This document shows positions 29,845-38,653 of a stretch of DNA of 64,000 nucleotides, piece after piece. The translations under genes were made by a program, and so were the position numbers. Under the pieces are notes generated by a model, which did no database searches, was not told the origin of the DNA, and saw nothing but the letters and a program-made list of their open reading frames with translations. Source of the stretch: Fidelibacterota bacterium (GTDB lineage Bacteria; Marinisomatota; Marinisomatia; Marinisomatales; S15-B10); assembly GCA_002715465.1 (NCBI GenBank), contig PAYY01000007.1:228475-292474 (forward strand). Reading direction: 5' to 3'. The stretch's first letter is position 1. Every line of letters begins with the position of its first letter.

Positions 29845-30096
29845 TTAAGAGGAGCGTTTTACAAAAATTTTCACTGCAGATCGTAGTTCACCGAAATATA
29901 TTCGATCTACATGTTCAGCCAAATGTGCTGTTAAAATAAGAAATGCCCAAGTAGGAACTATAGCATTTGCACAACCTCGAATTAAAACTCTTTTTCCTAT
30001 AAACTGGGTCCAATCAATTTGTGAAACTTTTTTTCGAAAAACTTTTTCTTTGATTACTCCTTCATCAAGAAAATCATCGAGATGAATAGTTTCCAT
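29845..30096 (-). CDS. short DUF2480 protein, end of the SUF operon
   Basis: Small protein of 83 aa matching one repeat of DUF2480: KVSQIDWTQFIGKRVLIRGC, NAIVPTWAFLILTAHL and IYFGELRSAVKIF. In Bacteroidota the family is about 165 aa with two such halves and is often found in suf operons; here only one half remains, and Arg replaces the second-half Cys of FGEPCS. The chosen start (ATG 30096) overlaps the stop of the A-type carrier gene as TAATG. The function is unknown, but the location argues for a part in Fe-S assembly. Confidence 0.65.
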   Translation of the reverse strand: METIHLDDFLDEGVIKEKVFRKKVSQIDWTQFIGKRVLIRGCANAIVPTWAFLILTAHLAEHVDRIYFGELRSAVKIFVKRSS

Positions 30097-30443
30097 TAAA
30101 CTGAGAAAGAAGTTCCACAACCACAGGTTCGAGATGCATTAGGATTTACGAATTTGAATCCGCCAGAAAGTATATCGGCTGAGAAATCAATAGTCATACC
30201 TCTTAAGTATAATAAAGATTTTAAATCCACAACAACTTTCACTCCATGATGTTCATAAATTTTATCAAACTCTCCTAAATCTTTATCCCATTCAAGGTTA
30301 TAGTTCATTCCAGAGCAACCTCCTCCAGAGACTGAAGCACGTAGATAGTCACCATCTTCATCCACACGAATTTGTAGTAAACGATCAGCAGCTGTCTTAG
30401 TAAGTGTAATTCCCTCTAATATTTCTTCTTGAATTTCAGCCAT
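30096..30443 (-). CDS. A-type iron-sulfur carrier (IscA/SufA/HesB family)
   Basis: Fe-S carrier protein of 115 aa. The three cluster cysteines are present in SGGGCSGMNY and CGCGTSF at the C-terminus, and LWNPNASRTCGCG-type wording is clear. It receives clusters from SUF scaffolds and passes them to target proteins. I start at ATG 30443, which has GGGA 7 bases upstream; a TTG at 30455 would overlap the preceding DUF59 gene. It is coupled to the DUF2480 gene by TAATG. Confidence 0.92.
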   Translation of the reverse strand: MAEIQEEILEGITLTKTAADRLLQIRVDEDGDYLRASVSGGGCSGMNYNLEWDKDLGEFDKIYEHHGVKVVVDLKSLLYLRGMTIDFSADILSGGFKFVNPNASRTCGCGTSFSV

Positions 30444-30445
30444 AT

Positions 30446-30802
30446 TTATTCCCAACTCTCTGACTCTTCTTTTTCATGATGTTTTGGTTCGAATCCAAGT
30501 TTCGATTTCGCTTCATCTTTCATCATTTCTGGTGTCCATGGAGGTTCAAATGTGATTTCTACAAAAGCTTGGTTAACATCATCCAGTGCTTCAAGTTTAT
30601 TTCTGATGTCATCAGCCATCATTTGTCCCATTCCACAGCCTGGTGTTGTTAGAGACATGATTATATTTATATCGGACTTATCCTCTTCAAAAGCCTCTTG
30701 AATTTTGATCTCATAGATTAGACCTAGATTATATAGATCTATAGGTATTTCTGGGTCGTAGCATTGCTTAAGAATTTGAATAACTTTTTTTTCGGTTATC
30801 AT
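30446..30802 (-). CDS. short DUF59/MIP18 family Fe-S maturation protein
   Basis: 118-aa DUF59 (MIP18/PaaD-like) protein. It has the family motifs CYDPEIPIDLYNLGLIY near 15-31 and the conserved cysteine in TTPGCGMG near 53-60, followed by FEPPWTPEMM. DUF59 proteins act as Fe-S maturation or transfer factors. This is the second DUF59 gene of the operon; the other is the longer SufT at 32514, and their C-terminal halves are plainly related. It lies 1 base after the Rrf2 regulator gene. Confidence 0.88.
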   Translation of the reverse strand: MITEKKVIQILKQCYDPEIPIDLYNLGLIYEIKIQEAFEEDKSDINIIMSLTTPGCGMGQMMADDIRNKLEALDDVNQAFVEITFEPPWTPEMMKDEAKSKLGFEPKHHEKEESESWE

Positions 30803-30803
30803 A

Positions 30804-31202
30804 TTAAAGTGTTACATCATTAACAGTCATATTATCAAACATTGTTCTCATGCTTTCATTTAGTCTTTGGATAGGAGATCGAATATTACATGTTTCCACT
30901 AATTCACAATTAGAATCAAAATAGCAATCCATTATACCCCAAGGTCCCTCCATTATTTCAAAGAACTCTGTCATGGAAAAACTGTCTAGTTTGGCTCTAA
31001 GTTTGTAGCCACCGTTTGGTCCTTGAATGGGTTCAATAAATTTTTGTCGGGATAATTCTTGTAAAACTTTCGCCAAAAGAGGTTGAGGAATTTTATATTG
31101 ATTGGCTATTTCTTTTGCACTTACAACCTTACCTTCATCAACAAAGCGTAGATGTCGTAATGCAATAAGTGCATATTCAGTTTTTCTAGTCAACTTTAAC
31201 AT
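30804..31202 (-). CDS. Rrf2-family Fe-S-sensing regulator (IscR/SufR-like)
   Basis: Winged-helix regulator of the Rrf2 family, 132 aa. The helix-turn-helix region is SAKEIANQYKIPQPLLAKVL with the wing IQGPNGGYKL. Cysteines C93, C99 and C105, spaced by five residues, match the 2Fe-2S ligands of IscR, so it should sense cluster supply. It is encoded inside the SUF operon it probably controls, between sufS and the short DUF59 gene. A three-half-site repeat upstream of sufB is the likeliest binding site, by inference. Confidence 0.9.
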   Translation of the reverse strand: MLKLTRKTEYALIALRHLRFVDEGKVVSAKEIANQYKIPQPLLAKVLQELSRQKFIEPIQGPNGGYKLRAKLDSFSMTEFFEIMEGPWGIMDCYFDSNCELVETCNIRSPIQRLNESMRTMFDNMTVNDVTL

Positions 31203-31257
31203 GATTCTATAATATAGTATTGCAAATTACAGGTTTGAATTTTAGCAATCAAGAGTC

Positions 31258-32514
31258 TTAAGTCATAAATTTTATAGTTTTTAATAGAGATTCTGCAAGA
31301 CTATCTATATCATTTATATCATTATATAGATAAAAACTAATTCTTACAGTGGCTGAAACATTCAATTTATTCATAATTGGTTGAGCACAATGATGCCCAG
31401 CTCGGACAGCAATGCCATCTTCATCTAATAATTGGGCTACATCATGAGGGTGAATTCCGTCAATGTTAAATGTTATTAATCCACCTCTATTTTTTGGACT
31501 GCCATAAATTATAATTTTATCAATTTCAGCTAGTTGTTTAAGAGCATAATTAGTTAATGTTGATTCATGGTCCTTAATTTTTTGAATCCCAATATTTGAG
31601 ATATATTTCACTGCAGAACCTAAGCCAATAGCTTGCGCAATATTTGGTGTACCTGCTTCAAATTTCCATGGTATTTGATTCCAACTAGACTTTTCAAGAT
31701 TAACGCTTTGAATCATTTCGCCACCACCAAGAAAGGGTTCCATTTCATTTAGAATTTCATTTCTTCCACAAAGAACCCCAACACCCGTTGGTCCTAGCAT
31801 TTTATGTCCTGAGAAACCTACGAAATCACAATCGATAGAAGATATGTCAATTCCTAGATGGGGAATACTCTGGGCACCATCTAGGAATGTTATTGCGCCA
31901 ACAGATTTAGCATGATCAAGTATTTTTTCAACATCATTAATAGTACCAAACACATTGGATTGATGAATAAATGATACAATTTTAGTATTTTTGTTGAAAT
32001 ATTTTTCTATATCCAAAAGATTTCCATCTTTGGTAAAAGGAATGAATTTCAAATTTGCACCAGTTAGTTTAGCGATAATTTGCCATGGAACAAGATTACT
32101 ATGGTGTTCCATTTCAGTCAAAAGTATTTCATCGTTTGCCTTTAAATTTTTTAAACCCCAAGCATAGGCAATTAGATTAATTGATTCCGTAGTTCCTTTG
32201 GTAAATATAACAGTATGTGAATCCTTAGCACCAATAAAACGACTAATTTGTCTACGGGCTTTTTCATATGCTTCAGTAGCTTTATCCCCAATTGAATAAA
32301 TAGACCGATGAACATTAGAATTATAATTATAGTAATATTCATTTACCGAATTGATTACTTGTGTAGGTGTCTGAGAAGTAGCCGCGTTGTCAAGATAAAT
32401 AAATGGTTTTTCTTTCGATTGATTAGCAAAAATGGGAAAGTCATTTTTTATGATATTCACATCCAAAGGAAGTGAGTTCAATACTTTCGATGAATTTGTA
32501 TCAATTATATTCAT
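31258..32514 (-). CDS. sufS: cysteine desulfurase SufS
   Basis: PLP enzyme releasing sulfur from cysteine as a persulfide for Fe-S assembly. PLP-binding K238 lies in FSGHKMLGP and the catalytic Cys376 in RAGHHCAQP, the SufS/CsdB type. The length, 418 aa, is normal. Its partner is the SufU scaffold or sulfur acceptor encoded upstream. Enzymes of this class can also act on selenocysteine, which is relevant because selD is the gene next to this operon. It overlaps the sufT stop by one base. Confidence 0.96.
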   Translation of the reverse strand: MNIIDTNSSKVLNSLPLDVNIIKNDFPIFANQSKEKPFIYLDNAATSQTPTQVINSVNEYYYNYNSNVHRSIYSIGDKATEAYEKARRQISRFIGAKDSHTVIFTKGTTESINLIAYAWGLKNLKANDEILLTEMEHHSNLVPWQIIAKLTGANLKFIPFTKDGNLLDIEKYFNKNTKIVSFIHQSNVFGTINDVEKILDHAKSVGAITFLDGAQSIPHLGIDISSIDCDFVGFSGHKMLGPTGVGVLCGRNEILNEMEPFLGGGEMIQSVNLEKSSWNQIPWKFEAGTPNIAQAIGLGSAVKYISNIGIQKIKDHESTLTNYALKQLAEIDKIIIYGSPKNRGGLITFNIDGIHPHDVAQLLDEDGIAVRAGHHCAQPIMNKLNVSATVRISFYLYNDINDIDSLAESLLKTIKFMT

Positions 32515-33065
32515 TAGTACATTCCAAGATCAAGACGGGCAGCTTCAGAAATCATATCTTGTGTCCAAGGTGGATCCCATACTAGTTCAACATTAACATC
32601 TCTAACTCCGGAAACATTCGCAACTTTTGATTTAACTTCATCTACTAACATTGGTCCCATTCCGCAACCTGGCGCGGTAAGGGTCATTTTTATATCAATA
32701 AATGATCCTCCATCTTCAGCATCATTGACTTCACATGAATAAATAAGTCCTAGATCGACCATATTTACAGGGATTTCAGGGTCATAACATGTTTTTAATA
32801 CATCCCAAATATCAGATTCATTGGCAGAACCAATGACTTCGCTGTCATCATTTAATTCTGTCATCACCTCTTTTCCAATAGCGTCGGCATCCTTTCCTTC
32901 AATTCTAAATAGAGATCCTCGTGCCATTACAGTATAGCTTCCACCTAATGCTTGAGTTATTCGTACTTCATCACCCTTTTTTAATATAAATGAATTTCCA
33001 AAGGGTATAAGAGTTGCTTCGCAATCTCGATTAATAATGATGATATCTTGTTCAGAAGAAGTCAT
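32514..33065 (-). CDS. sufT: SufT, long DUF59-type Fe-S assembly protein
   Basis: 183-aa SufT. The N-terminal part reads RDCEATLIPFG then KGDEVRITQALGGSYTVM, typical of the long SufT type, and is followed by a DUF59 domain with CYDPEIPVNMVDLGLIY and TAPGCGMGPML. SufT helps Fe-S cluster maturation, especially under high demand. It lies between sufU and sufS with single-base overlaps, so the order sufU-sufT-sufS is translated as a block. Confidence 0.94.
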   Translation of the reverse strand: MTSSEQDIIIINRDCEATLIPFGNSFILKKGDEVRITQALGGSYTVMARGSLFRIEGKDADAIGKEVMTELNDDSEVIGSANESDIWDVLKTCYDPEIPVNMVDLGLIYSCEVNDAEDGGSFIDIKMTLTAPGCGMGPMLVDEVKSKVANVSGVRDVNVELVWDPPWTQDMISEAARLDLGMY

Positions 33066-33508
33066 TATTCAGTTTTTGTAATTTTATTAGAACCTGATAA
33101 ACAATTATAAAGAGTATGCCATGGAAGGGTAGCACATTTTACTCTAGCTGGATATTTATGGACACCAGCCATCACAGAAAGTTTTCCGAGTTCTTCATCT
33201 TCTACCTCACCTGTTGTAACTAATTTGTGGAAAGACTTAAAAATTAATTTAGCCTCAGTAATAGTAATACCTTTTATAATGGTTGTCATTATAGAAGCTG
33301 ATGCTTTGGAAATTGCACAACCTGATCCATTAAACCTGATTTCATTTATAGTTAGGTCATTTATATTCATCATGAGGGATAACTTGTCTCCACATAGAGG
33401 ATTGAAGCCATTGCCAGAGTGAGTATATTTTTGCAGTACACCAAAATTCTGAGGATTTTGATTATGGTCTAAGATTACCTCTTGATAAAGTTCTCGAAGA
33501 TCGTTCAT
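33065..33508 (-). CDS. sufU: SufU-type Fe-S scaffold / sulfur-transfer protein
   Basis: SufU/IscU-type protein of 147 aa, acceptor of persulfide sulfur from SufS. Zinc/cluster residues are C39 and D41 (NPLCGDK), C64 (GSGCAIS) and C125 (RVKCATLPW). The insertion between the second and third cysteines is the SufU type rather than IscU. It starts LYQEVILDHNQNPQNFG, as usual. Placed between sufD and sufT. Confidence 0.95.
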   Translation of the reverse strand: MNDLRELYQEVILDHNQNPQNFGVLQKYTHSGNGFNPLCGDKLSLMMNINDLTINEIRFNGSGCAISKASASIMTTIIKGITITEAKLIFKSFHKLVTTGEVEDEELGKLSVMAGVHKYPARVKCATLPWHTLYNCLSGSNKITKTE

Positions 33509-33509
33509 A

Positions 33510-34772
33510 TTATATTTTCTCTAACCACTTTTCAAGAAGGTCTTGGCTATATTTGCGAACTTTATCATTTTTTATTTCATTTAATACTTCTCCAGCAAAT
33601 CCATTTATAAGAAGAGCTTGAGCCACAAAATCATCTAATCCTCGAGATTTTAAATAGAAAAGTGCTTCTTCATTAAGCTGGCCAGTAGTGGAGCCATGAG
33701 TACAGCGCACATCATCGGCATAAATTTCAAGTTGAGGGTTTGAATTCATTAGAGCTGTATTACTAAGTAAAAGATTATTATTTGTTTGATTCGCATCTAT
33801 TTTTTGAGAATTTTCTCGAACAATAGCTCGCCCATTAAAAACACCTGAGGATTTATCGGTTAAAATATACTTAAAAAGCATACGGCTTGTTACATGTTCA
33901 GATGCATGATCCATAATGATATTATGATCCATGTGTTGATGGTTATCCGCCAAACAAAGACCATTAAGAGTTATATCGGCTCCTTTGCCTGAAAGAATAG
34001 CCTTAACATCATGTCTATGAAGAATGGATCCTTTAGAAATATAACTTGCTCTAATAGAACAGTCTTGTAGTGCATTATAATAAGTTGATGAGAGATGAGA
34101 GGCTGACATTCCTTCATGTTGAATTCTAACATGCTCTACACTACTATTTTTACCACAGCGAAACATTGTTAAAGCATTATTAAAATAAGGTTCAGAATAG
34201 TTACCTTGATATTCTTCGATAATAGTTGCTTCTATATTGTCATCCAAATCTATTATTAAACGGGGATGATTCATTATAGGTTCAGACAATTCTGTTGTAA
34301 GGTAAAGGAATCTAATGATTGAATCTTTAGGGAAGTCTTTGGAAAAATGTAAATGGAGCCCATTGTTCATCATAGCTGTATTAAGAATAATAAATGGATT
34401 AGGATCACTTTCTAAGTCATTTATCAAAAGGTTTTCTTTATTATTATAATTTTCAAGAAAAGGATTAATTGTAAGCCCTTCTTGTTCTGTTGGCATTGTT
34501 GACTGATAATTGCCATTTAAAAAAACTAAGGTGGGAATAGAAAGGCCGTCAGTGACCATATTTTTATCTAAAGGTAAATCATCAGTTGATGATAAGCGAA
34601 ATGAGTTTTTAACTAACTCATTAAAACTAGTAAAACGCCATGCCTCCCAATGTTTTTTAGGTAGACCAATTTTTTTAAACCGATTGAATTCCTTTTTTCT
34701 AAGTTGCTTAAGAGATTGGGACTCCTGGTTTGAATTAGATAAAGTAAAAAACTCTTTTTCGAAATATTGCAT
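33510..34772 (-). CDS. sufD: Fe-S cluster assembly protein SufD
   Basis: SufD subunit of the SufBCD scaffold, about 420 aa. The C-terminal beta-helix core is recognisable by HHQHMDHNI-like wording (NHQHMDHNIIMDHA), SGVFNGRAIVRENSQKIDANQTNNNLLLS and DDVRCTHGSTTGQLNEEALFYLKSRG. A longer frame starts at a GTG (34796) inside sufC; I prefer the ATG at 34772, four bases after the sufC stop. It works with SufB and SufC in cluster assembly on the cytoplasmic side. Confidence 0.94.
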   Translation of the reverse strand: MQYFEKEFFTLSNSNQESQSLKQLRKKEFNRFKKIGLPKKHWEAWRFTSFNELVKNSFRLSSTDDLPLDKNMVTDGLSIPTLVFLNGNYQSTMPTEQEGLTINPFLENYNNKENLLINDLESDPNPFIILNTAMMNNGLHLHFSKDFPKDSIIRFLYLTTELSEPIMNHPRLIIDLDDNIEATIIEEYQGNYSEPYFNNALTMFRCGKNSSVEHVRIQHEGMSASHLSSTYYNALQDCSIRASYISKGSILHRHDVKAILSGKGADITLNGLCLADNHQHMDHNIIMDHASEHVTSRMLFKYILTDKSSGVFNGRAIVRENSQKIDANQTNNNLLLSNTALMNSNPQLEIYADDVRCTHGSTTGQLNEEALFYLKSRGLDDFVAQALLINGFAGEVLNEIKNDKVRKYSQDLLEKWLEKI

Positions 34773-34776
34773 AGCT

Positions 34777-35529
34777 TTATAAGCTTTCTTTTTCACGAAG
34801 CCAATTGTATCCTTTGTCTTCGAGTTCTTCTGCTAAGTTTTTTTTACCTGAACGAACAATACGTCCATCCATTAGGACATGGACAAAATCTGGTGACATA
34901 TATTGTAGTATCCGCTGATAATGAGTAATGACAATGACTGCACGGTCTTCACGTCTAAATTTATTCACACCATTAGCGACAATTTTAACAGCATCTATAT
35001 CAAGGCCTGAATCAGTTTCATCTAGAACAGCAAGAGAAGGATCTAAGGCAAGCATTTGAAGAATTTCATTTCGCTTCTTTTCTCCTCCAGAGAAACCATC
35101 ATTTACTGATCGCTTGAGATAAGATTCATCCATTTTTACTTCAGCAAGTTTTTGTTTAATAAAATCAAGAAAATCAACAGCATCCATTTCTGTTTCACCG
35201 CGATGTTTTCTTACAGCATTTACAGCAGCTTTCAAAAAGTATGCAAGATTAACCCCAGGAATTATGGCTGGATATTGATAGGACATAAAGACACCTTCTA
35301 AAGCACGTTCTACTGGATCCATTTCAATTAGATTTTTTCCCTTAAAGATAATTGTACCTTTTCCAATATCGTATAATTCTCGACCCGCAATTATATGGGC
35401 TAGAGTACTTTTTCCTGAACCATTAGGACCCATGATTGCATGAAGCTCGCCATCGTTAACTTTTAGATTAATTCCATTTAATATAGCCTTTCCCTCAATG
35501 CTAGCAGTAAGGTTTTTTATCTCAAACAT
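34777..35529 (-). CDS. sufC: Fe-S cluster assembly ATPase SufC
   Basis: ABC-type ATPase of the SufBCD complex, 250 aa. The Walker A is GPNGSGKST, the signature is FSGGEKKRNEI, and Walker B with the switch region is LAVLDETDSGLDIDAV, the soluble SufC form. There are no membrane segments. It drives the conformational change that opens the SufB-SufD interface. It lies 47 bases after sufB. Confidence 0.97.
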   Translation of the reverse strand: MFEIKNLTASIEGKAILNGINLKVNDGELHAIMGPNGSGKSTLAHIIAGRELYDIGKGTIIFKGKNLIEMDPVERALEGVFMSYQYPAIIPGVNLAYFLKAAVNAVRKHRGETEMDAVDFLDFIKQKLAEVKMDESYLKRSVNDGFSGGEKKRNEILQMLALDPSLAVLDETDSGLDIDAVKIVANGVNKFRREDRAVIVITHYQRILQYMSPDFVHVLMDGRIVRSGKKNLAEELEDKGYNWLREKESL

Positions 35530-35576
35530 GTAATTATGATCTCCTAAAATTGTTAATATAGAGTAGAAATGATTGG

Positions 35577-37061
35577 TTATCCAACACTACCTTCAAGACT
35601 TACTTCTAAAAGTTTTTGTGCTTCTACAGCAAACTCCATAGGAAGTTCTTTGAAAACTTCTTTACAAAAGCCATTCACAATCATAGAAACGGCATCCTCA
35701 GTAGAAATTCCTCTTTGGTTGCAATAATAAATTTGATCTTCACCAATAGCTGAAGTAGAGGCTTCATGTTCCATTTGAGCACTTGGATTTCTAACATCAA
35801 TGTATGGGAAAGTATGAGCGCCACATTTATCCCCTATTAGTAAAGAGTCACATTGAGAATAGTTTCGAGCGTTTTCTGCTTTTTTCTGAATTGAAACAGC
35901 CCCACGGTAAGTGTTTTGACCCTTTCCAGCTGAAATTCCTTTTGACACAATTGTACTTGAGGTGTTTTTACCCATATGTATCATTTTTGTACCCGTATCA
36001 GCCTGTTGAAAATTGTTTGTTAGGGCAACTGAATAAAATTCTCCTATACTATTATCACCTTTAAGTATCACACTAGGATATTTCCAAGTTATTGCTGAGC
36101 CTGTTTCTACTTGTGTCCAAGAAATTTTAGCATTTTTTTCAAGGCATGAGCCACGTTTTGTTACAAAATTAAAGATACCACCTTTTCCAGTTTTCGGATC
36201 ACCAGGATACCAGTTTTGAACAGTGGAATATTTAATCGTAGCGTTTCTATGAGCTACTAACTCAACCACTGCTGCATGTAATTGATTTTCATCCCGCATA
36301 GGAGCAGTACAACCTTCAAGATAACTAACATGACTATCTTCATCAGCGATAATTAAAGTCCTTTCAAATTGACCAGTATTTGCAGCATTAATTCTAAAAT
36401 AAGTGGAAAGCTCCATAGGACAGCGGACACCTTTCGGTACATAAACAAAACTTCCATCGCTAAAAACAGCTGAATTTAGAGTAGCAAAAAAATTGTCAGT
36501 ATAAGGGACAACTGATCCAAGATATTTGCGAACTAATTCGGGGTGATTGATTACAGCTTCTGAAAAAGAACAAAAAATTACACCGGCCTTTTCTAATTCT
36601 TTCTTAAAGGTAGTTGCAACTGAGACGGAGTCAAATACAGCATCTACAGCAACTCCAGCAAGCATTTTTTGTTCTTCCAAAGGAATGCCTAGCTTCGCAT
36701 ATGTTTTTAATAATTCCGGATCTACTTCATCAAGATTTTTAGGAGCATCATCTTTGGATTTAGGGGCTGCGAAATAGCTAATGGATTGGTAATCAATAGG
36801 CTCATATTTTACCATATGCCAATTTGGTTCTTCCATTTTGAGCCATTGTCGATAGGCCTTCAGTCTCCAATCAAGTAACCACTCCGGCTCATTTTTCTTG
36901 GAAGATATAAGCTTGATTACTTTTTCATTAAGACCAGGTGGAATGGTTTCCTGGTCAATCTCAGTTATAAAACCATATTTATATTCCTGAGAAAGTTGAC
37001 TTTCTATTGTTTGCATCTCGTCTGTTAGAGTTTGAACAGATGATTCATTATCTTTCATCAT
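35577..37061 (-). CDS. sufB: Fe-S cluster assembly protein SufB
   Basis: Scaffold subunit SufB, 494 aa, first gene of the SUF operon. Recognisable stretches are [39 protein letters not shown], and [19 protein letters not shown] with the conserved cysteine for cluster building. It works with SufC and SufD. Two adjacent ATG codons (37061 and 37058) are possible starts. The 107 bases upstream contain a candidate promoter and an operator-like repeat. Confidence 0.97.
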
Positions 37062-37084
37062 AATAGCCTTTTAATATATATAGA

Positions 37085-37113
37085 AATTAATTTCGCTAAT
37101 CGGCAGGAGTCAA
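37085..37113 (-). promoter_or_regulatory. candidate sigma70-type promoter for the SUF operon
   Basis: On the minus strand TTGACT (37113-37108) and TTAATT (37090-37085) are separated by 17 bases, close to the -35 and -10 consensus. The start of sufB lies about 24 bases downstream of the -10 element. The element was found by eye and the promoter rules of this lineage are unknown. Confidence 0.4.
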
Positions 37114-37128
37114 GGAATATCAGACTGA

Positions 37129-37157
37129 TTTTGTCTCATTTGAGACAAAACGTCTCA
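37129..37157. promoter_or_regulatory. operator-like repeat upstream of sufB (three GTCTCA half-sites)
   Basis: A perfect inverted repeat with 10-base arms, TTTTGTCTCA and TGAGACAAAA, two bases apart (37129-37150). It is followed by a third half-site GTCTCA at 37152-37157. It lies about 16 bases upstream of the candidate -35 and 68 bases from sufB, a position that suits an activator. The operon encodes its own Rrf2 regulator, the natural candidate to bind here. It is also just after the selD stop, so a weak hairpin or terminator role is possible, but no T-run follows. Confidence 0.5.
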
Positions 37158-37168
37158 TTTAATTATAA

Positions 37169-38221
37169 TTAATATACATGAATCCTTTTATCATTTGAAG
37201 TTTTGATAAACTTTCCAATAATACTAGCATCGTACGGTGTTTTGCCTTTGAAGTCTTTCACAAAAGAGTCTACTTTTTCTGTTGGTATAGCAATTAACAA
37301 ACCACCCGATGTTTGTGAATCAGCAATCATTAATTTTGCAATTGTATCAAACTTTTCATGAAAGTTGATTTCATTTGTAATATTATCCAGGTTTCTTTTT
37401 GTCCCACTGGGTACAATTCCATTACTTGCTAGTTCACGAACTCCATTAATAAATGGTAATTCATTAAACTTGATCTCAACTGAGACAGAGCTAGCTTTAC
37501 ACATTTCAAAAAGATGGCCAAGAAGACCAAATCCTGTTACATCAGTTGCGGCTTTAACACCATACTTAACCATGAGTTCACTAGCTGATGAATTTAGTGT
37601 TGTCATTAATTTATTTACCTCTTCAATTAAATTTACTGAGGCTTTATCCTTTTTAATTGCAGTGGAAATTATGCCTGAACCTAAAGGTTTAGTTAAAAGA
37701 AGTGTATTCCCAGGTTGTGCTCCTCCATTAGTAACTACTTGATCTAAAGGAATTTTTCCAGTTACAACTAATCCATATTTTGGTTCTTTGTCATCTATAC
37801 TATGTCCTCCTAAAATAGGTATTCCAGCTTCTTGAGATTTAATTGCTCCACCATGCAGTATTTTTTCTAATATGTTAAAGGGTAGATCATCTTTTGGAAA
37901 ACCAACGATATTTAGTGCGAATAGGGGTTTTGCACCCATTGCATATATATCAGATAGGGAATTTGCTGCTGCAATTTGGCCAAAAATGAATGGGTCATCC
38001 ACAATTGGTGTGAAGAAGTCTACTGTTTGTACTAGAGCTGTTTTTTCATCAAGACGTATTACGGCGGCGTCATCAGAAGAAGAAAAATCAGCCAGTATTG
38101 CATCATCAATATTTTTTGGTAGATTTCTCAGAACCTGAGATAGGTCATTTTGACCAAGCTTACATCCTCAGCCAGCTCCATGACTAAATTGTGTTAAACG
38201 TTTTGCATGTTTTTGTGTCAT
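37169..38221 (-). CDS. selD: selenide, water dikinase SelD, itself a selenoprotein (in-frame TGA = Sec18)
   Basis: Makes selenophosphate from selenide and ATP, the selenium donor for Sec-tRNA and selenouridine. A plain reading begins only at 38002 (MDDPFIFGQIAAANSLSDIYAMG), lacking the catalytic N-terminus. The same frame continues upstream to ATG 38221, crossing one TGA at 38170-38168. The resulting protein is 350 aa, the normal length, starting MTQKHAKRLTQFSHGAG-U-GCKLG. U18 takes the catalytic Cys position (E. coli Cys17) and K21 is the essential lysine. A candidate SECIS hairpin follows. The frame is closed upstream by TGA two codons before the ATG. It is the last gene after eda and a carbonic-anhydrase-like gene. 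Confidence 0.93.
38135..38171 (-). promoter_or_regulatory. candidate bacterial SECIS element in selD
   Basis: On the minus strand the Sec TGA lies in CTGAG (38171-38167), which can pair with CTCAG (38139-38135). Inside, GGTCA and TGACC form a 5-bp upper stem with a three-base AAA loop (38155-38143). The apical loop begins 17 bases after the TGA, within the distance known for bacterial SECIS elements. The guanine usually found at the start of the loop is absent, so the element is plausible but not perfect. Confidence 0.55.
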
Positions 38222-38269: not shown

Positions 38270-38653
38270 TTACTTTTCTCTTTTATACTCAATTGCTTCA
38301 AAATTTTCATTCACCCATAACTTTACTATCTTTAGTTTAGGGAATTGTGATTGTAGAAATAAACTGGATTGGTTTAGGTCGTAGAGTTGCTGGCTTTTGT
38401 TCACAGGATTACCAGCACAATCATGGTGGGCAACAATTCCAATTCCTATAGAAGAGTGTGCTTCAATGGAGATTTTCAATTTTTTAAGAATTGCTTCAAC
38501 ATTAGCCTTCGGTTGTTTTTTAGACAAAATTGAAACAGGCCCGGCTTCAGTAATACAGTCTACAAATTTTACCTCAAAATAATTTTTTAGATATTTAGAT
38601 ACAGGTTGCTGAACTCGTCCATCAATACAATTAATTACGGCACAAAAACTCAT
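38270..38653 (-). CDS. mini beta-carbonic-anhydrase-like zinc protein
   Basis: 127-aa protein with the metal site of beta-carbonic anhydrases: C9-X-D11-X-R13 (NCIDGR) and H76-X2-C79 (HHDCAG). It lacks the N-terminal helices and much of the dimer-forming part of true enzymes, which are about 200 aa. Catalysis is therefore uncertain; it could be a metal-binding or regulatory relative. It overlaps the eda stop by four bases and lies 48 bases before selD, so it is probably co-transcribed with both. Confidence 0.6.
   Translation of the reverse strand: MSFCAVINCIDGRVQQPVSKYLKNYFEVKFVDCITEAGPVSILSKKQPKANVEAILKKLKISIEAHSSIGIGIVAHHDCAGNPVNKSQQLYDLNQSSLFLQSQFPKLKIVKLWVNENFEAIEYKREK

Follow-up and report, generated by a model that had tools for sequence, protein, structure and literature searches.

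Introduction

Enzymes of the SelD family (selenide, water dikinase) carry either selenocysteine (Sec) or cysteine in an N-terminal loop, and passages of PMC13188914 name this residue as the catalytic one. The Sec-containing form ranks, in passages of published surveys, among the commonest known bacterial selenoproteins, and one survey puts its share at 19% of SelD genes; passages on marine metagenomes count 357 Sec forms in the GOS marine set (PMC2398784) and 28 in the Sargasso set (PMC1088965). For the RNA element that directs Sec insertion in bacteria, the bSECIS, the model outlined in passages of PMC13188914 specifies an apical loop of 3-9 nt, an upper stem of 4-16 bp and a G within the first two nucleotides of the loop, together with a distance of 16-37 nt from the UGA to the loop and a free energy of -7.5 kcal/mol or lower.

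Here we describe a selD gene in a 64,000-nucleotide stretch of DNA (hereafter the window) whose nearest selD loci belong to Neomarinimicrobiota (Marinimicrobia, SAR406). Like the described Sec-containing SelD proteins (TIGR00476), it combines a TGA at the conserved loop position with a full-length match to the family and a hairpin downstream, and the companions of such genes, selA, selB and tRNA-Sec, are seen here in its relatives. We find no essential difference from this type; the residue following Sec is Gly in the window, where 76 of 78 relatives have Ala. The Cys-containing SelD of known structure (Protein Data Bank (PDB) 3u0o) belongs to the same family and has the same length, with its Cys17 aligned to Sec18, but it has Cys in place of Sec, and the folds of the three Cys-type genes checked did not show the hairpin. 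Given how common Sec-containing SelD is in published surveys, the window gene is a further case of a well-known bacterial arrangement and adds no new principle. What it does confirm is that a seemingly broken selD is intact and that simple open reading frame (ORF) calling loses its catalytic end; decoding of UGA as selenocysteine in this marine lineage is very probable.

Results and Discussion

A full-length SelD frame interrupted by one TGA

The selD frame lies on the minus strand of the window (37169..38221) and, read from 38221 to 37169, comprises 350 codons followed by a normal stop; its sole internal stop is the TGA at 38168..38170, the codon of residue 18. The plain ORF on the same strand (37169..38002), which is the output of simple gene calling, starts at GTG 38002 and encodes 277 amino acids. 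A preliminary description of this DNA had claimed that this ORF lacks the catalytic N-terminus and that reading through the TGA at 38170-38168 adds back 73 codons and the motif H-G-A-G-U-G-C-K. Translation bears out all of this: the plain ORF is 73 codons short of the full frame, and the predicted Sec18 stands in the context HGAG-U-GCK, with the conserved Lys of the N-terminal loop after the U. The expectation that automated annotation would render the gene as broken is likewise borne out, the database protein P0002 being the short 277-amino-acid ORF.

Comparison of the 350-residue read-through product with SelD families, proposed as a check in the preliminary description, yielded 402.1 bits for the NCBIfam SelD profile TIGR00476 (cut-off 125) and 382 bits for NF002098 (cut-off 299; residues 4-347), and the Pfam domains AIRS and AIRS_C were found in the full frame. 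The TIGR00476 alignment spans profile positions 1-309 of 311, in keeping with the claim that 350 residues represent the full length of the family. Among the matches to SelD structures in PDB, 3u0o, which we take to be the Escherichia coli protein, aligns with residues 5 to 339 of the query and places Cys17 opposite residue 18, the correspondence that had been proposed for Sec18. Judged by these alignments, the full frame is a member of the SelD family with a predicted Sec at the catalytic-loop site.

From ATG 38221 to the TGA the sequence contains no other in-frame ATG, GTG or TTG, and the frame is closed by a stop two codons ahead of this ATG, which makes ATG 38221 the only common start that takes in the loop. 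A clear Shine-Dalgarno sequence was not found ahead of it on reading the sequence.

Conservation of the TGA among relatives

In the genome collection, 264 selD loci were confirmed, and the best 80 (L001-L080) were retained and aligned to residue 18. All 78 of these best 80 loci that reach the residue-18 codon have TGA there, while in the other two (L056 and L074) the match begins past residue 18 near a contig end. With TGA in 78 of 78 relatives, its presence in the window is not a matter of chance. Conservation in the relatives extends to the codons that flank the TGA on either side. In each of ten Neomarinimicrobiota genomes chosen among the selD loci, a single SelD passes the cut-off, and it has exactly one TGA; of ten genomes from the nearest relative's family (that relative among them), nine have a SelD match, each with one TGA, and one genome is without a match.

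In homologues, Cys can occupy this site, as it does in 3u0o and, encoded by TGC, in three plasmid-borne selD genes; a conserved in-frame TGA at a Cys site of this kind is a mark of selenoproteins. At the protein level, the 18 matches that follow the window's own entry are 73-97% identical to it and 256-308 amino acids long, lengths that would be expected if these frames, too, had been cut at the TGA. A separate observation concerns a TGA-containing selD (L118) on a Photobacterium plasmid record, for which the incomplete PLSDB table lists no gene under the match.

A hairpin downstream of the UGA, kept in most relatives

In the window, the sequence that follows the UGA folds into two hairpins. 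The main, bSECIS-like hairpin (38126..38140, minus strand) has the sequence UCUCAG-GUU-CUGAGA when read from 38140 to 38126, that is, a 6-bp stem with the loop GUU; the stem starts 27 nt and the loop 33 nt after the UGA. A smaller hairpin (38143..38155, minus strand) folds between the UGA and the main one. Compared with the bSECIS model, as far as passages of PMC13188914 describe it, the window hairpin agrees in its GUU loop, its 6 bp, the G in first position and the 33-nt spacing, but is weaker, with -5.2 to -6.0 kcal/mol on its own against the -7.5 kcal/mol of the model. Stretches of 48-51 nt that start at or after the UGA and take in both hairpins fold at -11.3 to -11.7 kcal/mol; given the values for the main hairpin alone, it takes the neighboring hairpin to bring the energy down to that of the model.

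Against recoding with synonymous codons drawn from selD itself, the window has a z-score of -2.70. Across 79 genes, which are related and hence not independent, the mean z is -1.81, and 49 of the 79 fall below -1.64 compared with 6.5% of 432 control windows elsewhere in the same genes. Dinucleotide shuffling of the window alone gives a z of only -1.27, with 24 of 200 shuffles as good.

Covariation was assessed on 56 sequences, the window and 55 of the 78 relatives, the other 23 having been removed manually beforehand (near-duplicates as well as certain divergent rows, including helix-breaking ones). Across the six pairs in this hand-selected set, 91.1% of cells are paired, versus 76.6% after shuffling; 47 cells are changed on both sides, versus 11.4 in shuffled alignments and at most 23 when the helix is slid; and the covariation score is 0.392, versus 0.128 shuffled and 0.013-0.110 slid. 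A weaker measure is how many of the six pairs show any two-sided change: in the same 56 sequences there are four, a value reached by 29 of 500 shuffles. The pair joining the third base of codon 28 to the first base of codon 32 occurs as CG (20), GC (14) and UA (13), so that a silent base tracks the opposite codon. When all 79 sequences are taken, six pairs can form in 53, five in 9 and four or fewer in 17, and 74 of the 79 begin the loop with G.

RNAalifold returned no consensus structure for either the 56 or the 79 sequences, which come from several phyla. On six close sequences it predicts the two hairpins at -14.44 kcal/mol, and on a hand-chosen 34 at -11.75 kcal/mol, the latter being a favorable subset because L028, L037 and L050, which were left out, lack the main hairpin in their individual folds. 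This subset consists of the window, 30 loci titled Neomarinimicrobiota and three loci of unnamed phylum; in addition to these three, the titled locus L051 is not part of it. An Rfam scan of the window at the gathering threshold found only a tRNA, and the six Rfam matches around the UGA all score far below the gathering scores of their families.

As controls, five of 584 matching plasmid records, all from other phyla, were picked by hand from 40 listed. The three Cys-type selD genes among these five can form 4, 2 and 2 of the six pairs (z of +1.28, -0.24 and +0.64); for the two TGA-type genes the counts are 6 and 4, and the z-scores -2.0 and -1.55. One Cys-type control thus forms as many pairs, four, as one TGA-type control. 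Taken together, the hairpin folds more strongly than expected from synonymous recoding, carries compensatory changes and is kept in most relatives, although some measures do not support it. In function, it would presumably serve to recruit SelB.

Selenocysteine machinery and other selenoprotein genes in related genomes

The ten chosen Neomarinimicrobiota genomes, whose completeness is not stated, served as one set for all counts of the machinery. The complete Sec system (selA, selB, selC and other selenoproteins) that the preliminary description predicted for the genome was recovered in these relatives. Both selB and selA score over the cut-off in 10 of 10 genomes and tRNA-Sec in 9 of 10. ARAGORN identifies all nine of the latter as tRNA-Sec with the anticodon TCA and the candidate from the tenth as tRNA-Leu; no tRNA-Sec over the cut-off was found in the 0.9-Mb genome of L011. 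For selenouridine synthase (family TIGR03167), one of the ten has a match that passes the cut-off.

Matches with one TGA inside were found for SelW-like proteins in nine of the ten genomes, for AhpC/TSA-type proteins in all ten and for AhpD-like proteins in six. When nine such stretches were taken and read directly, eight displayed a CxxU, TxxU or UxxC motif, all of which are among the motif types listed for marine selenoproteins in passages of PMC2398784. CxxU is present in the SelW-like matches of L105, L111 and L112 and the AhpD-like matches of L108 and L109, TxxU in the AhpC/TSA-type matches of L106 and L113, and UGSC, a UxxC motif, in the AhpC/TSA-type match of L110; the ninth stretch, L107, has no recognizable frame.

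Thus, Neomarinimicrobiota relatives possess Sec machinery and several TGA-containing selenoprotein genes despite the tabulation, in passages of PMC5029168, of three SAR406 genomes as orphan-SelD organisms, a listing that may be due to incomplete genomes. A Marinimicrobia bin is named in PMC8318568, the passages of which contain no account of its selenoproteins. The idea that SelD is the only selenoprotein of the lineage is ruled out by the TGA-containing SelW-like, AhpC/TSA-type and AhpD-like genes in relatives.

Decoding of the UGA and alternative explanations

We consider it close to certain that the gene encodes the SelD of a bacterium, probably an uncultured marine member of Neomarinimicrobiota, and that UGA18 is decoded as Sec by tRNA-Sec and SelB. 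The decoding would be guided by the hairpin located just downstream, inside the coding sequence, and Sec18 would sit in the flexible, selenium-binding N-terminal loop. From selenide and ATP, the enzyme is predicted to produce selenophosphate, which SelA would use to make Sec-tRNA. If the organism has no second SelD, as is the case in the ten relatives searched, the enzyme would need its own product for its own synthesis.

A pseudogene, or a sequencing error at the TGA, in an organism that makes a Cys enzyme or none, would also explain why the plain ORF is shortened to 277 amino acids, as the TGA indeed does. We regard this as highly improbable: the same TGA stands in every one of the 78 loci, among the best 80 of 264, that extend to this codon, apart from this codon nothing interrupts the frame, whose score is that of a full-length SelD, and the next-best 18 proteins are short as if cut likewise. 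Equally improbable is the reading that the true product is the 277-residue ORF from GTG 38002, which would be a SelD devoid of the N-terminal loop. This frame is open and identical to the entry P0002, but the conservation of codons before as well as after the TGA argues against it, as does the loss of the residue, Sec or Cys, that is catalytic in this family.

There is, finally, a very slim chance that UGA is read genome-wide as an ordinary amino acid, for instance tryptophan or glycine. In its favor, five aligned database SelD proteins (P0021, P0027, P0029, P0032 and P0041) have Trp at the Sec site; however, the DNA of L012, the N-terminus of which is close to that of P0021, has TGA, so these Trp entries look like gene calls made under genetic code 4. 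The window itself points away from reassignment. Of the 61 ORFs of at least 100 amino acids found there, 57 were taken, four overlapping ones having been left out by hand; these end in TAA (43), TGA (9) and TAG (5), and TGG is used 264 times. Extensions through TGA were accepted if 12 or more codons preceded an upstream TGA or 15 or more followed a terminal one; six passed, selD included. Only in selD is the TGA flanked on either side by a long open stretch, with 18 codons before it and 55 up to the plain start. The other four upstream extensions have 2 to 14 codons between the TGA and the ORF, and only one of the nine ORFs ending in TGA has at least 15 further open codons, namely 18. Relatives with SelB and a tRNA-Sec with the anticodon UCA likewise argue for Sec insertion rather than reassignment.

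The suf neighborhood of selD

Directly upstream of selD, at 38270-38653, lies a gene for a putative carbonic anhydrase (PF20393) of 127 amino acids; a tblastn search at an E-value of 1e-8 gave no match among the best 80 of the 264 selD loci. Downstream, on the same strand, selD is followed by sufB, sufC, sufD, sufU, a gene for an FeS_assembly_P protein, sufS, a gene for an Rrf2-family regulator and further Fe-S genes, selD and the suf region together occupying 30096-38221 of the window. The first of these, sufB (35577..37061, minus strand), is a conserved neighbor. Counting tblastn matches of more than 50% identity on the same strand and no more than 4 kb after selD, we found sufB in 20 of the 27 loci titled Neomarinimicrobiota among L001-L080 that have at least 4 kb of flank, in both loci of unnamed phylum and in none of 32 loci of other phyla. 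The SufB of the window is 90% identical in L001, and this, along with the nearest selD loci, is the basis for placing the window in Neomarinimicrobiota. Besides the window, sufU was seen in five loci and sufS in one (L001), in flanks that reach at most 5 kb; the presence of sufS downstream in the window and L001 alone is due to the fetched flanks ending too early in most loci.

The sufS gene (31258..32514, minus strand) encodes a cysteine desulfurase of the SufS family (TIGR01979, 577 bits; cut-off 475), a possible selenium donor, and the Rrf2-family regulator (30804..31202, minus strand) matches PF02082 with 91 bits (cut-off 30). It is conceivable, albeit rather doubtful, that in Neomarinimicrobiota a self-dependent Sec-containing SelD and the suf genes constitute a shared module for selenium and sulfur supply, in which SufS would provide SelD with selenium and the Rrf2-type regulator of the cluster would govern selD as well. 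Between selD and sufB, there is an inverted repeat at 37129-37150; the inverted repeats around GTCTCA/TGAGAC in this gap, at 37129-37157, could be a terminator or the operator of a regulator.
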